This document shows positions 37,829 to 49,704 of a DNA stretch of 64,000 bases, piece by piece. The notes beneath the pieces were generated by a model. The model did no database searches. It was not told the DNA's origin and worked only from the letters and a program-made list of their open reading frames with translations. Position 1 is the stretch's first letter, and each line of letters starts with the position of its first letter. Origin of the DNA: Prototheca cutis (Eukaryota; Chlorophyta; Trebouxiophyceae; Chlorellales; Chlorellaceae); NCBI GenBank assembly GCA_002897115.2, contig BCIH01000009.1, forward strand, positions 564,415 through 628,414, read 5' to 3'. The translations under genes and the position numbers were made by a program.

Positions 37829-39433
37829 ATGTTGCCGCCCACCTGGGTGCTGCTGTGGATCGCCCTCCCAAGCTTGCTCCTGCTGGCGGCAGGGGCCTCC
37901 TCAGCCTCCCCTCCCCTCATACATTTGAAATCTGGGAGCATACGAGCACATGCCCACAACAACCGGTGCGTTTGCTGCAGGGACCTTGCCTGCGCCCTTT
38001 TGCGTGGCGGAGCGTGGCTGCCAGCTTCCGCAGGGCGTGGCAGTGACCTTGTGGCAGACCTTGCCCTGCCTCAGCCCCGGTACCCCCCACTCCCCGACCG
38101 CAGGGAAACCCACCAGCGATTGCTGCTGTCGGAACCCAACTTTTACACGTATTCCAGGGACTGGGGTGCTCTAGCCAATGTGGAGCAGTGGCTGGTCACG
38201 GGGCTGGAGAACAGCGACACCGACAGCGCCGCCACTGCTGTGGAAGCCACTGGGGGTCAGGTAATTGGTTACATCCCGTCCAGCACACTGCTCGTCCTGG
38301 CGTCCCCAGAAGCTGTGGCTGATCTGCTGCAGACACCGGCCGCAATCAATGGCAGCATCTCTGTGGTGGGTTACGTGGGGCCGTGAAAAGGGGGGGGGGG
38401 GGCTGGCCCGTTTGATTTCTTTCCTTGGATCCGGTGCTTGGTACTGCCCAGGTCCTGGGTTGCTGTGGATTTCTGGAGCTTTGTGGTGCTGAACGTACAG
38501 CTCCCGAGCTTGTCAGTTGTTGCACTGATTGATTGATTGTGACGGGCCTGCCCTTGAGAGTGGCGTCCTTGCAGAGAGTAAACAAACGCAGCAATATCGT
38601 GTTCGTCCACCCACCACTATGCTCTTGACATGCAGCTGCCCTTTGAGGCACGCCACAAGATGAGCCCCGGATGGAGCCGTGTGCATGCACTGCTGCAAGC
38701 TGCTGGCGGTGCAAACAGCTCGCTGGTCGGGCCGGCACTCCGGGCGGCCGGGATTTCTACTGAGATTGTGGACGCCAAGCCGCGTGTCAAGGTGTCGGTG
38801 GCCTTTGCCCCCCTGCATCAAGATCCCGCTGCACACTGCGGCCGGGCAGCGGCCGCTGACTGGCTGCCCCTGCTGCAGGCTCGGTTTGGCGCTGGCATGT
38901 CCCTCGGGGCGCAGACAGTCAGCGCGGTGTTTCTGGACGTGGAGCCCCAGGTTCTTGAGGTGGGTTTGTGGGAAGGGTGCGCGTCACTTTCTTTTCTTCG
39001 CAATCGCATCCGTAGGCTGCTGTGCTCTCTGATGCGCGACAAATGCCTCTCCTGCGGCACCACAAAATGATAATGAAAATACGAATGCCCTCTCTCGCTG
39101 TCCACAGGGCGTGCTGGACTGGCTTGCAGCGCGGCCGAGCGTGCACTGGGTGTCGCCCGCGCCAGCAGTGCGCATGCATAACATCCAGGCGAGTTCAATT
39201 ACGCAGTCAGGCCAGGCAGCGGCCTCAGCCACAGACAACACAAATGTCAGCCCCGACTACCACCCGATTTGGGCCTCGGGCCTCACTGGTGCTGGGCAGA
39301 TTATCGGCGCCGGGGACTCTGGCGTAGGTGAGATACACACTGATTGATTGCGTGGTTTTGTCGAGTTGCTTGCTTTAGGGTATGATGTAATTGCATTGTC
39401 ATCTGATCTCCAACAACTCTACCAACTTCTCAC

Positions 39434-39490
<57 letters not shown>

Positions 39491-39494
39491 CCCC

Positions 39495-39525
<31 letters not shown>

Positions 39526-42500
39526 ACACAGACCGCTATCACTGCTTCTTCTACGACCCTTCAGTGAGCTGGGCTTCGGGCCTTTCAAATCAGGACGGCG
39601 TAGAAGTGTTTTCAAGCACAGAGCACCGCAAGATCAGGTGCGTGTGGGTGTTGGGGCTTGGAATTGGCGGTTGCTGCTGCCTCGTGGGTACGCTGCTTGC
39701 ATCTCAACCAATAAAAGGATCAATGCAATTGACCAACCAGCCCTGCTTCCCTTTCCTGCACTGCCCTGCAGGTATTACCGTGCCTTTGGCGACTTTTCTG
39801 ATGCCAATGGGCATGGCACGCACACGATGGGCACACTGCTGGGCGCCACGGAGACGTCCAACACAACTGCAAGCAGCGTCGTCCAGTACGAGGGCATGGC
39901 CCCCGGTGCCAAGCTCGCCTTTATCGGTGGGTGACATGCAATTGTGTGTGTGTGTGTGTTGGGGGTGAGTGGGGGCCATTGTCGGATGGTGTCAACCCCC
40001 CACGATCTCCTCCCCTGACACACCGCCACAGATCTTGCCGCCGGCAATTCAGACAGCATCTACACGCCTGCCGACATCCAGAACGATTTCTTTGCCTACA
40101 CCACAGCTGTGGTACGTGTGGGCTGAGCCAGGGCTGGGTTGGTTGACTCGCCAGTTCCGCCGTTTGAAAAGACGACAAACACGCTCTAAGACAACCAAAT
40201 GAACAAACAGAAACGGCCCTCCTTCCCAAAAATAAATAAGTAAGTAATAAATAATAACAATAGCACTAAGACCTCAACGTAGGGTGCACTGCTGCATTCT
40301 GATTCGTGGGGCAGCACGTCGCTGGAGTACGATTCACTGGCGGCGCAGGTGGACCAGTACCACTGGAACAATCCTGACTTTCTTGCCATGTTTGCGGCAG
40401 GCAACGACGCAGAGACGACGAGCAATGGATCCATGACGGTGATGAGCCCCGCCACGGCGAAAAACATCGTGGCTGTCGGGGCGACCCAGACCGCGCAGCA
40501 GGGCCTGGGCGCTGCATCGACAGCTGCCACGGTGTACGACGCGGCGGTGACGCAGGACGACGGCCAATTGCTGCTGTCCTTCAAGGTTGTCCAGGCCAGT
40601 TTTGGCCCAGATTTATCTGCCTCGCTGATCAATGGCAGGTATGTCTTAGCTGCCGCCGACCCCCTGCTGGGCTGCGGCGGGGCGCTGGCGAATGCGAACG
40701 AACTCGAGAGCACCGTCGTGCTTCTCGAGCGCGGGAACTGCGTGCTGGTGGACAAGACGCTGGCTGCCCAGTCGGCCGGCGGTGTCGGCGCGCTCATTTT
40801 CGACAACATCCTCGGCGGCTATTTCGTTGCCGCGGCGAATGGGAGCGTTTCCAGCAGCGTGACCATCCCGACCGCGTCGGTGACGCGGCGGCTGGGCCAC
40901 ACCCTGGCCACCTGGCTGGCCTCAGGCATCTCGCTGAAAATCAGCTTCTCGGCAGCCTCTGCACCGAGCGCATCCTTTCAAAACCTGGCAGCCTACTCGG
41001 CGCAGGGCCCAACCCAGGACGGCCGGGTCAAGCCCGACCTGGTGGCCCCGGGGTCGCTGTATTCCGCCCTGGCCGTGGACAGCGGCGCGGAGGTGTGCGG
41101 GCTGACGGGGATGCAGGGCACGAGCATGGCGACTCCCGTGGTCGCCGGAGCTGCTGCACTGGTGCGGCAGTACTACGTCGACGGGTGGTACCCCTCGGGG
41201 GCGCCAAATGCCAGCGCCGCACTCACGCCCTCGGGAGCCTTGGTCAAAGCCACGCTCATGTCTGGGGCCGCGCCATTGACGGGGTATGAAGCCCTGACCG
41301 GGCTGCCCGTCGACCCCCCACCTTCCTTTCGCCAAGGGTTTGGCCGCATCCAACTCAGTGCGTTTATTATTTGTTGGTGATGTCTGCGTTTTCTAAGACA
41401 CATTTGCACACGTTTTGTGCTGTTCTTGATGTTGCGCTGCATTGGTTTTCAACCAGATACAAACAAACGCCATCTTCTACAACTCCCCCTGGCCCCCCCC
41501 AAAAATCCCCCTTACCCATAGATTCGACGGTGCCGCTGGCAAATATCGGGGGCTCGGCGGCCAGCCCCTCGACGCTGACGCTGCAGCAGGTCGACAAGGT
41601 GGACATCAGCACGGGTGACAGCCACAGTTATTGCCTGTGGACGACGGGGGGCGCCGTCACCGTGACCCTGGTCTGGACCGACTACCCCGGCCTGCCCAGC
41701 GCGTCCAAGGCACTCGTCAACGATCTCGACCTCACCGTGCGCGCCGGGGGCCTGGGTGGCGCGGTGCTGCTGGGCAACGGCGGCTCCATCACCAACGAGA
41801 CGGAGCCCGACCGCGAAAACAACGTGGAACAGGTGTCCATGCCCCTGGTCCCCGCAGGCCCACTCGCCATCACCGTGTCGGGGTACTATGTCTACTCACG
41901 CGCGGGGCCCCAACCCTATGCCCTGGTGGCCACAGGAGCATTTACGGGCGAGCTCGTCCGCCCCGACCAGCAGGGCGGCAACGCGGCCTGCAACGTCATC
42001 GAACCCAGCATCACCTCGGGGCCCGCGGGACCAACAAATGTTACACCTGTCACGTTTGCGTTTGGGGCCGCTGATGGATTGGTGGCGGTCGGCGTCACCT
42101 GGCAGTGCAGCTTGACGGATGAGTCTGGTGCTGTCGGTGCCACGGGTACCTTTGACTGGGAGGCGAGCGAGAGTTTTTTCCTTGTTGTTTCGAGGCTGTT
42201 GCTGGGGGGGGGGCATCTGGAGGCTGCACTTACGCGCCAGGCCCACGCATGCTCATGTCCATTCCAGAAAGCATCCACCTTCACAGCGAGCCGTGCTCCA
42301 CGCCACCCGTACCCGCCACAGGATTGCACGTCGCCCATCTCGCTGGATGGGCTGGACGACGGGTCGTACATGTTTGCGGTCCGGGCCAAGGGAGACACCG
42401 CCACAGCCAACAGCACCTTTATGCTGGTGAGAAGCTGCTTAAGAAAAGTTCCAAACGCTGGTAACATGGAGCATGCACATCGTGTGCTCAACCTTCACCC

Positions 42501-45500
42501 AATCGACGCACACTCAACCGACACAGGACACGACACCGCCTGTGATGTCATTTGGGTCCAGCAGTCCGGAGTCGGATTCGAGCTCGGATGCGGCAACGGC
42601 CAACGTGACTTTTACTGCGACTGACGAGCTCAGCGTCAATTACACCTGCTCGCTGGCTGTGGCACAGGGTGCCGCGACGCAGGGCACAGTGTTTTACGGT
42701 CAAGTCAATCCTTCTGCCTGGGCGCTGGACACCGTGGCGGACTGTGCCTCGCCTGCCGTCTTTCATTGGCTGCTTCCGGGGCAGTGGACCCTGACTGTCA
42801 CCGCCATGGATGCAGCAGGGAACCAGGTGTGTTCATGTCTCCGTTCTTTCTTGGAGCTTGGGGGTGTGGACGGGTGGGCATGTGGTGGTGCCGCCCCGGT
42901 GTTGCATCGCATGGGCCTCGCAACGTACGCCCCACACACCCTCCATAGAACATTTCCCCATCAATGAACTCCTCATGCAACGTCCACGGCAGGCATCGCC
43001 ACAAACCTATTCCTGGACGGTGGCGTTCTACGCAAACGAGCAATATGCCCGCCTGACCAGGCACGTTGCCTTGTCCCTGGGCCAGAGGGGTGGGCCAACT
43101 GGGATGGGCTCGGCTGATGCGGGAGCATTCGATAGACGCATGCATGCATGCCACGTTCTGGGACCCCAACATGCCCACAATGATCCCCACCAAAATCAAT
43201 GCAGTGGTCCATTTGGGCTGTCCAAGCTGCTGTCCCAGGTGGCCTTTAACTTCACCGTGTTTAGCTCGGCCGATGGGAGCGCCAGCGCGCTCACGAGCAT
43301 GTTGTCCGCCGGCACAGACTGCTGGCTGCAGGGCCCCGGGGAGAGCTCGTCCTCTGCCGATTGGAAGTCGTGCACTTCTCCGGTTGCCTACTCGGGCCTT
43401 GCCCAGGGCTCCTACACGTAAGTGGGCTTGGGGCTTGTCGGTGGGTCTTGTTTAATGCTGGTTGAGGGAAGGGAGTCTGGAAGGAGGTGATCTCTCACAG
43501 ACTTGATTGATCAAGCGCGGATGCATGCATGCATGAATGAAGGAATTCATCAATTCATGAATGAAAAGGCATGCGTGGTGCACAGCAGACCCACAACACG
43601 ACTCTAGTACCCTACCAACTGCAGGTTTTACGTGCAGCCCACTGCCCAGTCGTCGCTGTCGCTGACCAGCGATTCGGATGCGGCGCTGACGAGTGGGTCC
43701 ACTGCACAGTCCGCGTTCACCATGGACGGTACCATACCCAACGTCACCTTTACATCAAACACACCAGCCATCCTTGCAGTGAATACCACCGCTGTCGCGT
43801 TCGAAGCCGACAAGGACAACTGCACCTTTACCTGCGCGTACGTTGTGTGCATGGGGCCGATTGTGGGAATGGACATGCATCATTATTTATTGTTCAGTGG
43901 GTTTGTGTGTGCGCACCAAAGGGGGGCAGGGGGTTGTCCATGTTGCCTCTTCTTGGGGTGGGCAAGCAGGTGCAATTTCCCTTCGGCCAATGTCTGCGCA
44001 GGCTGACCGGTCCCGGCGGTGCTGGCCAGGCGCACACTTGCACATCACCGGTGGCATTGGAAAACCTCGCGGACGGCAACTACACGCTGGGCGTGGTTGC
44101 CACCGACATTGTAAGTCTGTGCTCGTAGTCTGCCCTGTGGGATTGAGCGTGTTTCTTTCTTTGCTTTTCTGGTTTGCGGAGAACAGATATTGAGTGCCTG
44201 CAGTGATGGCAAACGTGCCTGACAGATGCCTCACTCGCAAGGCGGTGAACTCACGGTATCCACATCATGAACACCCCTCGCTGGCCCCCTTTTGCAGGTC
44301 GGGAACGTAGGTCCTGCAGCAGAGCTTGGATTTATGGTGGACACCACACCGCCCTATTTCACAACACTGGCATACCCCAATGGCACGAGTACCGACAGCT
44401 TTGCCGTGCAATTTGCGGCCAGCGACGGAAATGGGTGCGTGGTTGTTGCAGGGGGCATGCATGCTGGGATCGCGCTGCTTTGACTAGCGGCCTTTGCCCG
44501 AAATTGCAGGTCTGGTGTCGTGAAATGCCATGTGAGTGCAATGCCTGATACCAAAGCACTCGAGGCATGGGCCCTATGCACATACAGGAGCGGCATTGCC
44601 AGTGTGGAGTGCCGTCTGACGGCCGTGTCGCTGGTGTCGAATGATTCTTCCTCGGCCGATGCTTACTCCAGCTGGAAAGACTGTACCAGTCCTACTACGT
44701 TCCAAAACCTCACGGTGTGTGTTGACTGTGTGGGTTGGAGGGGGTTGTGGGGGGAGGGGGAGGGGGGGTTCATCATTCGAAACATGGACTCATTGTGACC
44801 TGAAGGAGTAGAGTGCTTGCTGCTGCACTTTCAGACTGGCCAGGGAAACTGCACAAAAAATTGAGCCGAATCCTTGCCCTACGCCCAAATCATAAATCAC
44901 CAGGAGGGTCACTGGGGCCTGGAGCTGGTGGTGACTGATCAGGCAAATAACAGCTTTGACACTGGCCTCCTTGGCGTCTGGGTCTGGAGCACACCGCCCA
45001 CCATCACCGTCGCCAGTGGGCCCAGCAGGTGTGCGCTGCATGAGCAGGTGTTCTTTTTCTCCTCTGTGAGAGCGATGGAGTCGTGGCGGCATGCACCCTG
45101 CCGCCGCGGCGATTGCCCTTGCCACCAAGAGCACATGCGCTGTCAATGGACTCTGCCGGCACGCACATCATCTGGTGACAGCAAAATACCAACCTCTGCC
45201 CAATAAATATTCCAAAATCCACAGGTTGGAGACGGTACAGGACGTGTTCACGGTGTCGTTTGCGCAGGTGCAGCCTTCAGACTATACCACGGGCACGGCC
45301 GCGCCGGTCCAAACTTACCAGGTGCTCCTGGCTGGCCTGACGAGCGAGCAGTGGTCTTCCCTGAGCAATGGATCGTCATCCACGGGGACAATCACCCGTC
45401 GGCGCCTGCTGGACGACACATCGTCGACCGTGTCGGGAGATGCAGCTCTGGCAGGCTGGACCAACTGCTCTGCTAGTTGCACCATCGAGGTGCGCATGTT

Positions 45501-46477
45501 ATTCATGGCCCAGGGGAGGGGTTGTTTCTTGTGTTGCACTAGTCAATATGTGGAGCTTCCAAGACCAGCAGGCAACTCTGCGCCAACCTTTGTCTCCAGG
45601 GTTTGGGTTCCGGGCAGTACACCTACTCGGCACGCGGCATCGACGTTGCGGGCAACGTGGGCAGTGCCACCACGCCCGTGCCCTTCCAAATGGAAACCAG
45701 CAGCTCCAGCGGGTTCCCCGTCTGGGCCATTGTAGTCGTATCAGTCGGCGGCGCACTGGTCGTTGTTGCAGCGGTGCGCCGAGTGGCTGTATTGTGGTGG
45801 TGTGTGCAAGAGAGGGTGTGGGGGTTGGGGCAGAGGGTGTGGGGGTGTGTGGGGGGGGGACGAGTGTGTGCCCAGATATGGCAAATGAGCAGTGAAATTG
45901 CATCCAATGAACTTTGCGCTTTTCCTCTACCAAAAAAACACAGGTGCTACTCGTCTGGTGCTGCTGCTGCCGGCACAAGAAGACGGCGCGGCCTTCGGGC
46001 GCCGCGTCTGCCAGCCCTGGCAGACCCACTGGGTCCCAGGCCGCTGTCCACGGCACGGCCGGGCCGTGGGCTGCGCCAGTTCCGCAGGGATGGACGCCGA
46101 ATTCTCTTCCGCCTGGCTGGCCATCGACTGCCGGCCACCGGCCTCCTCCCCCGCCACCGCCTGCCCAGGCCGGGCCCTGGGCAGCACCTCCGGCATACCC
46201 GCAGTACGGCTATAACTATGCAGCACCGCTGCAGTATCAAGGAGCAGCCCAGTGGCACCCTTCACCATACGACGTAAACGCACGGGCACGGGAAGAGCAG
46301 GAGCTGGCGCTGGCCCTGGCGGCATCGAGGCGTGAGGCCGAGGCCGCTGCTGCAGGCCAGGCACCGCCGCTTGCTGACGGCCACAGTGACCCGCAGCTCC
46401 GGGCAGCCATCGAAGCCTCGCTGCGGGACCAGCAGGAAAAGGAGCAGCAGTCGGCCTGGGGCAACCCTTGGCGGTGA
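37829..46477 (+). CDS. Giant membrane-anchored subtilisin-like protease (S8) with PA domain, repeated ectodomain and UIM tail
   Basis: A serine protease gene of about 20 exons. Residues 1-27 are a signal peptide. A propeptide-like region follows, then the S8 catalytic domain: Asp in IIGAGDSGVD (39.31/39.53 kb), His in DANGHGTHTMG (39.8 kb), oxyanion Asn in MFAAGNDA (40.39 kb) and Ser in GMQGTSMATPVVAGAAALV (41.1 kb). A PA insert (VVLLERGNCVLVDKTLAAQS, GVGALIFDN) lies between Asn and Ser. A C-terminal beta domain (VTLVWTDYPG, VNDLDLTV) ends near 41.95 kb. Then come several modules with DTTPP, NxTFT and CTSP..L..G.YT..V.ATD motifs (42.0-45.7 kb). One transmembrane helix follows (FPVWAIVVVSVGGALVVVAA, 45.71-45.78 kb), then VLLVWCCCCRHKK, a proline-rich stretch and two ubiquitin-interacting motifs. 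Stop at 46475-46477. That all exons form one transcript is supported by continuous phase and the single signal peptide and helix, but is not proven. Confidence 0.8.
39435..39530 (+). repeat. Poly-C tract plus (CA)10 abutting a 3' splice site
   Basis: About 76 C residues with one T (39488) followed by ten CA units that end in the acceptor AG of the subtilase exon encoding DRYHCFFYDPSVSW. Confidence 0.9.
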
Positions 46478-47019
46478 TGATTGAAGAGGATGGAGAAATC
46501 ACCATCATCACCATGGCAGGTGTGCCTCCGGTACCCAGAATTGCAGCAGCAGGCCCATTCTAGGAATCCATCCAGATTTGGGCGTTCAAACACTTGCAAG
46601 ACATCCTCCCTTGGCACGAGATTCGTTGCAACGCCTTTCCCAGGTTTTCTCTGTTCACTTGTGTTCCATCAGAATGTACCCACCTACCAACTGCAACACC
46701 GCTGCTTGGCATGTCGATAGCTCTGTTTGCCACCGGAACAGACGCATGCTTACACTCCATGCACCCGCCAAATTGCTCTTTATAGCACAGGCCGGCCTCC
46801 CACTGTAACAGTAGGGGCGAGCACGCACAAATGCAACGCGCGACAACACGGCCGTGCGTGTCCTTTGAGGGATCACAGAAGAATGGGATCGCCACGGAGG
46901 GTCATGGTCCAGTCTGCACGCGAGATGGCCTCCCGGGTGAGTCCACAAACAGCACCGTGGAGGTCTTGAAAGCCACCTCGCATGGTGCCTCAGCCCTGCC
47001 TTGGCATCCTTCTCTGCGC
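46478..47019. other. 3' spacer between convergent subtilase and eIF5 genes
   Basis: 542 bp without a coding signal. It holds TGTAA on the plus strand at 46804-46808 (for the subtilase, 327 bases past its stop) and on the minus strand at 46750-46754 (for eIF5), so the two 3' UTRs may overlap. Confidence 0.4.
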
Positions 47020-49704
47020 TCACTCTTCCTCGCTTTCTTCCTCGGACTCGGCCTCCTCGAGCCAGTCCACGACAGGCTGCACCGCGATGCGGACGGCCGC
47101 TGCGGCCTTGGGAGGGACGCCCAGCGCAGCCGCCGCGTCCTCGCGCTTGTGCCTGTGGGTCGAATGGTGCACAGCACAAGGGCCGTGAGGCTTGGCTGGT
47201 TGGCTTCCAGGGGGATCGTTTCTTCTGGGTCTTCCAGCACTTTAACAGCAAACCCTGCGCACTGCAACGAAAATATGTAAGAGAAAACAGAAATCCCCCC
47301 CTTTTGACACAAACAAACAAAGGAGGAAAAGAAAGCACTCACCATGCAACGACAAGCTCCTCATCGACAAGGTCGAGGTCATAGAGCGCCTTGACGGCCA
47401 GGGGCGCCTCGCGGATGCGGCCCTCCAGCGTCACGGTCACCAGCTTCTCGAGGGCCAGGAGCTGTGCCAGCTGTCCCGCCGCGTCACGGCAGTGTGGTGC
47501 GAGGTATGCCTGCTGCGCCTCCACCGCGCTTGACAGTTTGGCCCCGGCGCCCAGGTCGCCAAACAGCGCCTCGTACAGCAGCGCCGTCCGGGCCGCGGGG
47601 GGCCCCGGGAGATCCATCGCCTTGAGCTCGCTCACCACGTCGGCGGGACTGCGCTGCGCGGCCAGCAGCTGGCGCAGCGTGGACAGCGCGGCCGACTCGG
47701 GGCTCGCCAGCGCCAGCTTCGCGGCAGTTTCCTCTGCCAGCCGCGCCTCCTCCTCGGCCTGCAAGAGCATGTGCGTTGAGGAAGGTGACAACTGGTTGAA
47801 TGCGTCGAGTATTGTGTGCGTGAGAGTATGTATGTTTTATTCATAGTAGAGACCATTGCAACAGCCCCACCAGCCCTGCAAGCATGGCCCCCCCATTTGA
47901 TTTCCCTCAAAAGGAAAAGAAAGAAGGGAAAGAAAAAAGGGAGAAAAAAGTTCCAGAACCCCACCTTGCGCTTTGCTTCTGCTTCTGCTTCTGCTTCTGC
48001 TTCTGCTTCGGCCGCGGCTGCAGCCTTGCGTTCGGCGGCCTCTCGCTCCGCCTCGACGTTGCCCTGCGTGACCATGGCTGCCGAGGCGGCAGACAGCTCG
48101 GCGGCACGGGCCGCCATTGCCGCCTCGGAGGTATCCGTCATCCATACCACCTCGTCCTCGTCTTCGTCCTCATTGTCCTCACCACCGTCCCCAGAAGCCG
48201 CATCATCCTGCATGCAGACAGGCAAGCAGGGCGTTGATAAGAAAGACACAAGTCAACAACGACGGCACACACCCGCACTCGCCCTCCAAAGCAGCCACAT
48301 GATTCAGCAATAAACGCACATCGGGCTTGGCATCGTTGTCGGTGGCATCGCCCTTGGACTTGCTCTTCTTCTTCTTCTTCTTCTTTTCTTCCTTCTCCGG
48401 GTCGGGGATGTCCATGCCCTTCATCCGCTCCTTCTCCATCTTCTTCACCCTGAAAGTGCAAGGGGGTCGGGGGGTGCATTGGGGTGTGTCCACGGTCAAC
48501 AGACAATGGCAAGGCCATCACGCAACCACCACCATGCCGCCAGTAGCCACTCCTGCAATCCATACACCCCCCTCCTCCGCCGCACTTCTTCTCGGCCTTG
48601 CTCAGCTTGTTCTCAGGCGGGTTTTTGAGGATAAAGGTGTTGAGCTTCAGGCGAGAGTCCACCTCCGAAACGTAGCCGCAAGCCTGCAGGTGAGCAGTGG
48701 ATTTTTGGAGGGGAAGAACATGGAGAAAGGAGGAGGGACAGAACATGGACAGGCGCCCCACCACCACGCACACACAAAACACAGCAAGCTGCTGTACCTT
48801 GCACTTGAGGAAGATGTTTTCCTTCTTGATTTTCACGACCGTCTCGGGGTTGCCGCAGGAGTAGCACTGGACGTACCTGCAGCACCATGGCAGGCGTCAT
48901 CATATGCTTTGCAATGTCGTCCATCCAGGACCAGAAAGTTGCGTGGCTAATGCACGCACGGTCAGGGTGTCGGGGGGCCCTTTCCAACGAGAAAGACAGT
49001 AGCAAGACCTGACTCGGGACCATGATACACGGCCCCAAAACAGGGCCTTTTTGCACAGGCAGCTACAGCTCATTTCCCTGCCCCGCCTGACACAAACTTT
49101 TTGATGAAAGACTCGAGGAGCTCCGACAGGCGGCTGGCGTCATGGGCACCGTTCACAATGCTCGTCCCCGAGCCTTTGTCAAACTTGGTCTGCGCACCGA
49201 GTTCGCACCCGAAAAACTTGAGCACGTCTGCGGTTGGCCAAGACGGAAGCCAAAAAGAAGCGGTCAGGCTGCACGCATCATGCATGGGGCTGTGCAATGT
49301 CCGTGGCACAGCCATGTCCACTGCCCCGTCAGCAAAGCCTGTCTCGGCCGGGCCTTGGCCCGGCCTCTTCCATCTCAAGCTGTCCGTATTTCTTGCCAGG
49401 AGAAAGGCACCTGCATCGTATTCCAAATCCCCACCACTGCTTACACTCAGGAGGGCGCTCCAGGGCCTTGGCGATGTCCACGTTGTTTTCCACGTTGGTC
49501 TTGATGCCATTCCCCCGGCCCTCGATCTGCATGGGGGGCAGTGGTCAGGGAGTGAGCAGCCGTGTCAGCCCATGCCCATGAGAAGCCCCAGCGAGGCCAG
49601 CCAGCATGCCACAGGCGTTCACGCACCCTGGCCTTGAGTTTGGGCATTTTGTAGCGGTAGAACGCATCCCCTGCATTCTCGCCACCGATGTTGATGCTCG
49701 CCAT
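47020..49704 (-). CDS. EIF5: Translation initiation factor eIF5
   Basis: GTPase-activating protein for eIF2 in start-codon selection. About ten exons on the minus strand. [26 protein letters not shown] is encoded first (up to 49704), followed by [20 protein letters not shown] and [17 protein letters not shown]. The zinc-ribbon region is [20 protein letters not shown] plus [18 protein letters not shown], then [14 protein letters not shown] lysine-rich and glutamate/alanine-rich linker ([15 protein letters not shown] near 48.0 kb) leads to the C-terminal W2/MIF4G-like domain (47.79-47.34 kb), which ends in the acidic-aromatic box [16 protein letters not shown] with stop at 47020-47022. The N-terminal arginine finger residue falls in the FYRYKMPKL block, as in other eIF5 proteins. 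The gene starts beside the gene-poor Fanzor-relic region. Confidence 0.93.

Follow-up and report, generated by a model that had tools for sequence, protein, structure and literature searches.

Could a protease of the subtilase (peptidase S8) family be joined through a membrane helix to ubiquitin-interacting motifs (UIMs) on the cytosolic side? A sequence-only reading of 64,000 nucleotides of Prototheca cutis DNA (the window, C9:564415-628414) had proposed such a protein, a transmembrane (TM) S8 protease with two UIM-pattern motifs in its tail. The gene model, the orthologues, and the predicted helices of the tail support that proposal.

We built the gene by hand from splice signals. It occupies positions 37829-46477 of the window on the + strand, with 21 exons that encode 1792 amino acids, 18 GT-AG and 2 GC-AG introns, and no internal stops. 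The model was corrected by alignment to the Auxenochlorella protein P0001, which the predicted protein matches over its entire length, with 951 of 1792 residues identical. The Pfam scan, the first homologue search, the count of matches to the first pattern, the lysine counts, and the first tree were made with an earlier model, which differs at three junctions and has an identical tail. Pfam domain positions also come from that model, with the S8 and PA coordinates renumbered onto the corrected one (Table 1). The intron before the exon at 39532 contains a poly-C tract and, after it, a run of AC (39434-39531). Downstream, a convergent gene lies on the - strand at 46900-49100; we take its frame to be eIF5-like.

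Table 1. Coordinates of the S8-TM-UIM gene and its encoded features (positions in the window)
Feature	Positions	Strand	Basis
Exons 1-7	37829-37965, 38104-38374, 38636-38959, 39108-39327, 39532-39637, 39772-39926, 40032-40111	+	
Exons 8-14	40283-41357, 41522-42162, 42322-42426, 42527-42826, 42993-43060, 43205-43417, 43625-43837	+	
Exons 15-21	44002-44110, 44298-44434, 44588-44714, 44904-45028, 45225-45489, 45600-45773, 45944-46477	+	
Predicted signal peptide, hydrophobic N-terminus, ~27 aa	37829..37909	+	Read from sequence by eye
Peptidase S8 catalytic domain, aa ~305-785, introns included	39288..41344	+	Pfam PF00082 8.4e-36
PA domain inside S8 domain, aa ~552-639	40643..40906	+	Pfam PF02225 6.3e-11
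Ig-like repeats Big_13 / Big_3_3	42000..45719, outer limits approximate, by reading	+	PF19077 8.8e-11, PF13750 2.9e-7
Single TM helix VWAIVVVSVGGALVVVAA+VLLVW	45720..45958, coded by 45720-45773 + 45944-45958	+	Hydropathy peak
Cys cluster CCCC, membrane-adjacent	45959..45970	+	Sequence
PPAY, PPxY-type WW-binding motif in Pro-rich stretch	46187..46198	+	Sequence
UIM1 EEQELALALAASRREAE	46292..46342	+	Pfam UIM best stretch of tail; HMM 7.7 bits
UIM2 DPQLRAAIEASLRDQQEKEQQ	46388..46450	+	Pfam UIM_2 best stretch of tail; HMM 22.5 bits

The order of parts supported by this model is a predicted signal peptide, an S8 domain with a PA insert, Ig-like modules, a TM helix, a cysteine cluster, and a proline-rich tail with two putative UIMs. 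By its sequence the protein belongs to Peptidase S8. The Asp/His/Ser triad is intact within the S8 domain (codons GAC at 39315-39317, CAT at 39812-39814, and AGC at 41123-41125), and the signature motifs GDSGVD, GHGTH, and GTSMATP are present. With P0001 as the query, the nearest solved chains were KP-43 (1wmd, E 4.2e-40) and SubHal (5fax, E 1.4e-39).

No stretch of the protein is more hydrophobic than the TM helix (mean 3.03 across 19 residues in the earlier model), which shares 12 of 23 residues with P0001, with one gap. All 23 N-glycosylation sequons found lie N-terminal of the helix and none C-terminal. The hydropathy peak and the sequon distribution, both read from the sequence, agree with a putative type I membrane topology. 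Exon 20 stops in the middle of the helix, and a phase-0 intron (45774-45943) connects FPVWAIVVVSVGGALVVVAA with VLLVWCCCCRHKK. Because this in-frame intron splits the helix, helix and tail share one reading frame. The earlier description of the tail, as a single helix followed by a cysteine cluster, a proline-rich stretch, and both motifs, was borne out in one + strand frame from 45720 to 46450. The same S8-TM-UIM order was sought among homologues, and 41 other predicted proteins among the matches listed have it. The sequence-only reading had left in doubt whether tail and protease share one transcript; the coding of the TM helix across the junction, together with these 41 proteins, largely answers that doubt. 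The gene model is predicted from DNA alone, and the tail exon could in principle be a separate gene, with the protease ending earlier. Neither a transcript that stops short of 45 kb nor a start of its own for the tail fits well with the split helix and the orthologous models, and P0001 aligns across the whole length; such an artefact is scarcely credible.

Whether the two motifs qualify as UIMs was assessed by pattern, by profile, and by predicted fold. The consensus is acidic-x-hydrophobic-x-x-Ala-hydrophobic-x-x-Ser-x-x-acidic, and by sequence the window tail carries it. UIM2 fits the first, stricter pattern, which has 1 match in the tail versus 0.003 expected in shuffles. UIM1 fits only a wider pattern in which Arg may follow Ser. 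The statement that each motif conforms at all key positions stands for UIM2; in UIM1, Arg directly follows Ser, a position at which Leu is commonest in orthologue motifs (43 of 70). For a motif HMM we took 70 motifs found in 34 orthologues, with the window and P0001 excluded; they were gathered by pattern, so their Ala and Ser positions were imposed and not discovered. The HMM matched the window tail with E 1.4e-9 in a three-sequence search, and by its score UIM1 is weak when taken alone. When 1625 six-frame segments of the window were searched, this tail had E 9.9e-7 and the runner-up 1.4.

A domain search of the tail had been suggested, and its outcome was divided. For the window tail alone, Pfam scored UIM at 17.0 bits (E 0.0051) and UIM_2 at 15.9 bits (E 0.014); the tail fell below the Pfam gathering cut-off (21 bits) for UIM and for UIM_2, and the whole protein reached 9.9 bits for UIM. 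Of the 42 tails with the UIM pattern, 19 were scanned, the window included. In 18 of them the best-scoring Pfam family was UIM or UIM_2, and 7 passed a cut-off for one or the other (P0003, P0012, P0014, P0015, P0017, P0018, and P0122); the V. africanus tail had no match to a UIM family. The contrast tails from Cymbomonas and from Astrephomene (P0023, a record labelled partial) gave neither UIM nor UIM_2. Among the matches listed in the Pfam lists of homologues no UIM family appears, and domain annotation misses the UIM tails of these proteins. A PDB search with the tail returned nothing over noise, a Vps27 chain coming last (E 6.4).

Genome-wide searches covered 19.9 Mb in 23 contigs. The window tail was not among the matches listed for Pfam UIM, so that search is not a census. 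It listed 6 other matches at 5 loci. Apart from one frame at L003, which reaches a hydropathy of 2.2 at ~0.9 kb from the UIM match, none of these loci has a same-strand stretch with hydropathy of at least 2.0 within ~3 kb. A frame at L005, presumably Rpn10 by its signature, has three UIM-like motifs and scored 16.0 bits, a value from another search mode that compares only roughly with that of the tail. UIM-like motifs also occur at L004 and L001, in an XPG-like nuclease frame and an OTU-like frame, both named by reading. In the same genome the chlorophyll a/b-binding family had no match, and dynein heavy chain matched at two loci only, among the matches listed; dyneins may be reduced in this colourless alga. 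The missing chlorophyll a/b-binding match, and the best homologue, which is from Auxenochlorella and is the first to bear an organism name, suggest a non-photosynthetic relative of Prototheca or Helicosporidium type.

The single-sequence AlphaFold2 model of the tail alone had a mean pLDDT of 62.9 and contained only two helices, at residues 108-136 and 150-173 (pLDDT ~89), and these coincide with the UIM stretches. UIM1 lies within the first and UIM2 in the second, so that in the predicted fold each has the single helix of ~20 residues expected of a UIM. In one species pair, the window versus Auxenochlorella P0001, UIM1 with three flanking residues is identical at 18 of 20 positions and the first 16 residues of UIM2 at 12 of 16, versus 22 of 108 for the tail upstream of UIM1. 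The CCCC cluster is a possible palmitoylation site; at least 2 Cys near the membrane are found in many orthologues as well. The proline-rich part has weak Pfam similarity to WBP-1 (E 0.02). A PPxY motif recurs in the proline-rich part of tails P0004-P0007, P0011, P0012, P0121, and P0124.

The homologue set comprised 338 proteins (protein searches, best 120 each) and the window, 339 in all. As TM-plus-tail proteins we counted those whose last 700 residues contain a hydropathy peak of 2.0 or more that is followed by 15 residues or more. Among the listed proteins 63 of 339, window included, have this layout, and the widened UIM pattern occurs in the tails of 42 of the 63, one to five times per tail. 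Across all 339 proteins, the 433,499 residues that precede the candidate helix contain 10 matches to the pattern. The 21 pattern-free proteins include six that are green by their labels (Klebsormidium, Closterium, Mesostigma, Cymbomonas, a paralogue from Edaphochlamys, and the partial Astrephomene record); the remaining 15 are unnamed or prokaryotic. Elliptochloris P0135, which ends in UIM-like repeats and has no helix in its model, was not counted.

A quick tree, supported by SH-aLRT only, was computed from 55 rows: 32 of the 42 UIM proteins, 7 of the 21 TM proteins without UIMs, and 16 others, leaving out near-duplicates and most unnamed or prokaryotic rows. All 32 UIM rows fall within one clade of 38, in which the other six have no usable tail, and support at the fork of this clade is 85. 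Over the 39 labelled rows the fewest state changes is 1. On this tree the UIM tail maps to one gain, and the sampled UIM proteins all belong to a single core green algal clade. The clade includes Auxenochlorella (Trebouxiophyceae, Chlorellales) and Bryopsis (Ulvophyceae), whose classes were looked up. Further members are Micractinium, Myrmecia, and Coccomyxa, which we take to be Trebouxiophyceae, and Edaphochlamys and Volvox, which we take to be Chlorophyceae. A loss of UIMs in Chlorophyceae, considered for Astrephomene P0023, was dropped because the record is partial and because the tails of Edaphochlamys P0224 and Volvox P0225-P0227 have the pattern.

The tail of Cymbomonas P0025 has, in place of UIMs, two C2H2-like fingers after the TM helix (CPICN...HLDTAH and CPVCG...HLDQAH), which recall ubiquitin-binding UBZ fingers. 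Pfam assigned this tail to Zn_SUZ12 (2.2e-7) and C2H2 families. In a PDB search with the second finger, other fingers and rubredoxins came first and RAD18 was weak (2mre, E 0.41; 5vf0, E 0.74). If the fingers are UBZ-like, a second ubiquitin-binding module would have arisen at the same place.

What might such a tail do for the protease? We tentatively favor a reading in which it binds ubiquitin on neighboring proteins in trans and couples the protease to ubiquitinated membrane proteins or to ESCRT sorting; this seems the most likely of the readings, its rivals being sorting in cis, docking on ATG8, and incidental helices. The ubiquitin-dependent endocytic sorting, or sensing, that the sequence-only reading suggested would be one of several readings of this architecture. 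The protein would be a single-pass membrane protease with its S8 domain, PA insert, and Ig-like stalk directed toward the lumen or the cell surface. Its cytosolic tail would be a flexible arm on which two helical UIMs grip the ubiquitin of neighbors. Binding would collect the protease and ubiquitinated membrane proteins where TOM1-like proteins or ESCRT work, at the endosome or at budding sites of the plasma membrane. Ubiquitin made in the cytosol could thereby set the site at which the protease acts outside, or the membrane proteins that it encounters. The genome contains one place each for VHS and UEV, which belong to the ESCRT route, and TOM1-like proteins replace ESCRT-0 in plants, according to an excerpt of PMC12051064. 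Reading in trans may work much as the UIM of the rhomboid RHBDL4 does, a likeness that serves as precedent only: in the portion of PMC10920636 consulted, this membrane protease uses a cytosolic UIM that aids binding of ubiquitinated TMED7, and its lumenal domain specifies cleavage.

The distal tails of 36 proteins contain 36 Lys versus 373 Arg, compared with 1428 versus 2224 in their ectodomains, and the Lys share is lower in the distal tail than in the ectodomain in 35 of the 36, which are related rows. With few distal lysines there are few sites for self-ubiquitination there, which hints that ubiquitin is read in trans and not carried, although the low count may reflect composition. In a mixed control, 13 TM tails without UIMs are Lys-poor as well (22 K versus 110 R); we therefore do not take the scarcity of lysine as proof that ubiquitin is bound in trans and give it little weight.

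The alternative that the protease itself is ubiquitinated, at membrane-proximal lysines and perhaps via PPxY, is somewhat unlikely; its UIMs would then promote coupled monoubiquitination, or endocytosis, vacuolar degradation, or vesicle release. Lys is kept within the first 20 residues after the membrane in 24 of 36 tails; the window tail has two such lysines and also the PPAY motif. The Chlamydomonas TM subtilisin VLE1 is found on cilia and ectosomes, and ESCRT has been proposed for ectosome sorting, as described in part of PMC10886904. Against sorting in cis stand the Lys-poor distal tails and the presence of PPxY in just 9 of 36 tails. Among the matches listed, every WW place is more than 20 kb away from any HECT place, and a NEDD4-type ligase is not visible. 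The NEDD4 route via PPxY was set aside on these two grounds, the unlinked HECT and WW places and the PPxY count.

UIMs can bind ATG8 as well, and UIM2 fits the ATG8-binding consensus hydrophobic-hydrophilic-X-Ala-hydrophobic-X-X-Ser given in an excerpt of PMC7301642. The helices might engage ATG8, at its UIM-docking site, in place of ubiquitin and lead the protease or its membrane to autophagy. We consider this quite improbable: the orthologue motifs favor upstream acidic residues and Leu after Ser, beyond that consensus, even if the collecting pattern partly asked for this. It is quite improbable, too, that these are conserved amphipathic helices which serve self-association or bind another partner and resemble UIMs only incidentally. 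Ala/Glu-rich helices are common, and 12 of the 19 scanned tails lie under the cut-offs with modest Pfam scores. Yet the pattern recurs throughout the 42 listed proteins while the preceding tail drifts, and in 18 of 19 tails a UIM family ranks above all other Pfam families.

With a subtilase connected across the membrane to ubiquitin receptors, the ubiquitin code of the cytosol would gain control over proteolysis in the extracellular space or along the vacuolar route. A broader proposal is that a ubiquitin-guided ectoprotease is conserved in core green algae, with multivalent tail UIMs that recognize ubiquitin where other membrane proteins reach the cytosol and direct the subtilase across the membrane to cut those proteins in the lumen or the extracellular space. 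We regard it as unlikely; if true, it would amount to inside-out ubiquitin-directed proteolysis, independent of the proteasome and of rhomboids. Trebouxiophyceae, Ulvophyceae, and Volvox-type Chlorophyceae all have lineages on the tree that retain the trait, which is thus testable in tractable algae.

Several known systems share parts of this architecture. Dictyostelium Tag proteases lend their name to the algal homologues P0017 and P0129 in the source records. They carry an ABC transporter, which the Pfam scan of the window protein did not find, and we know of no UIM in them. KP-43 and SubHal, the closest solved chains by sequence to P0001, are secreted bacterial subtilases without a PA insert, an Ig stalk, a TM helix, or a UIM. 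Hrs/Vps27, STAM, and Rpn10 are soluble or peripheral and are not proteases. RHBDL4/RHBDD1 is polytopic and has no S8 domain, and to our knowledge no homology to the algal S8 protein is to be expected. Hrs/Vps27, STAM, and Rpn10 do have one or more ubiquitin-reading UIMs (for Hrs and STAM, an excerpt of PMC12051064). RHBDL4/RHBDD1 is likewise a membrane protease with a UIM in its cytosolic tail, ubiquitinated membrane substrates, and a possible cut on the lumenal side, whereas its fold is that of a rhomboid intramembrane protease with a p97-binding motif (PMC10920636, in part). Chlamydomonas VLE1 (Cre01.g049950), the sporangin hatching enzyme, is also a green-algal S8 protease (PMC8643629, in part). 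By its published description it resembles the window protein in having a transmembrane domain, with a location on cilia and ectosomes, and differs in its reported homology to human PC7 (PMC10886904, in part). Among open-licence PMC papers, a literature search returned none that pairs UIMs with subtilases, subtilisins, S8 peptidases, or membrane-anchored proteases. Each half has precedents, in transmembrane subtilases and in membrane proteases with a UIM; it is the union of both that seems to be new.
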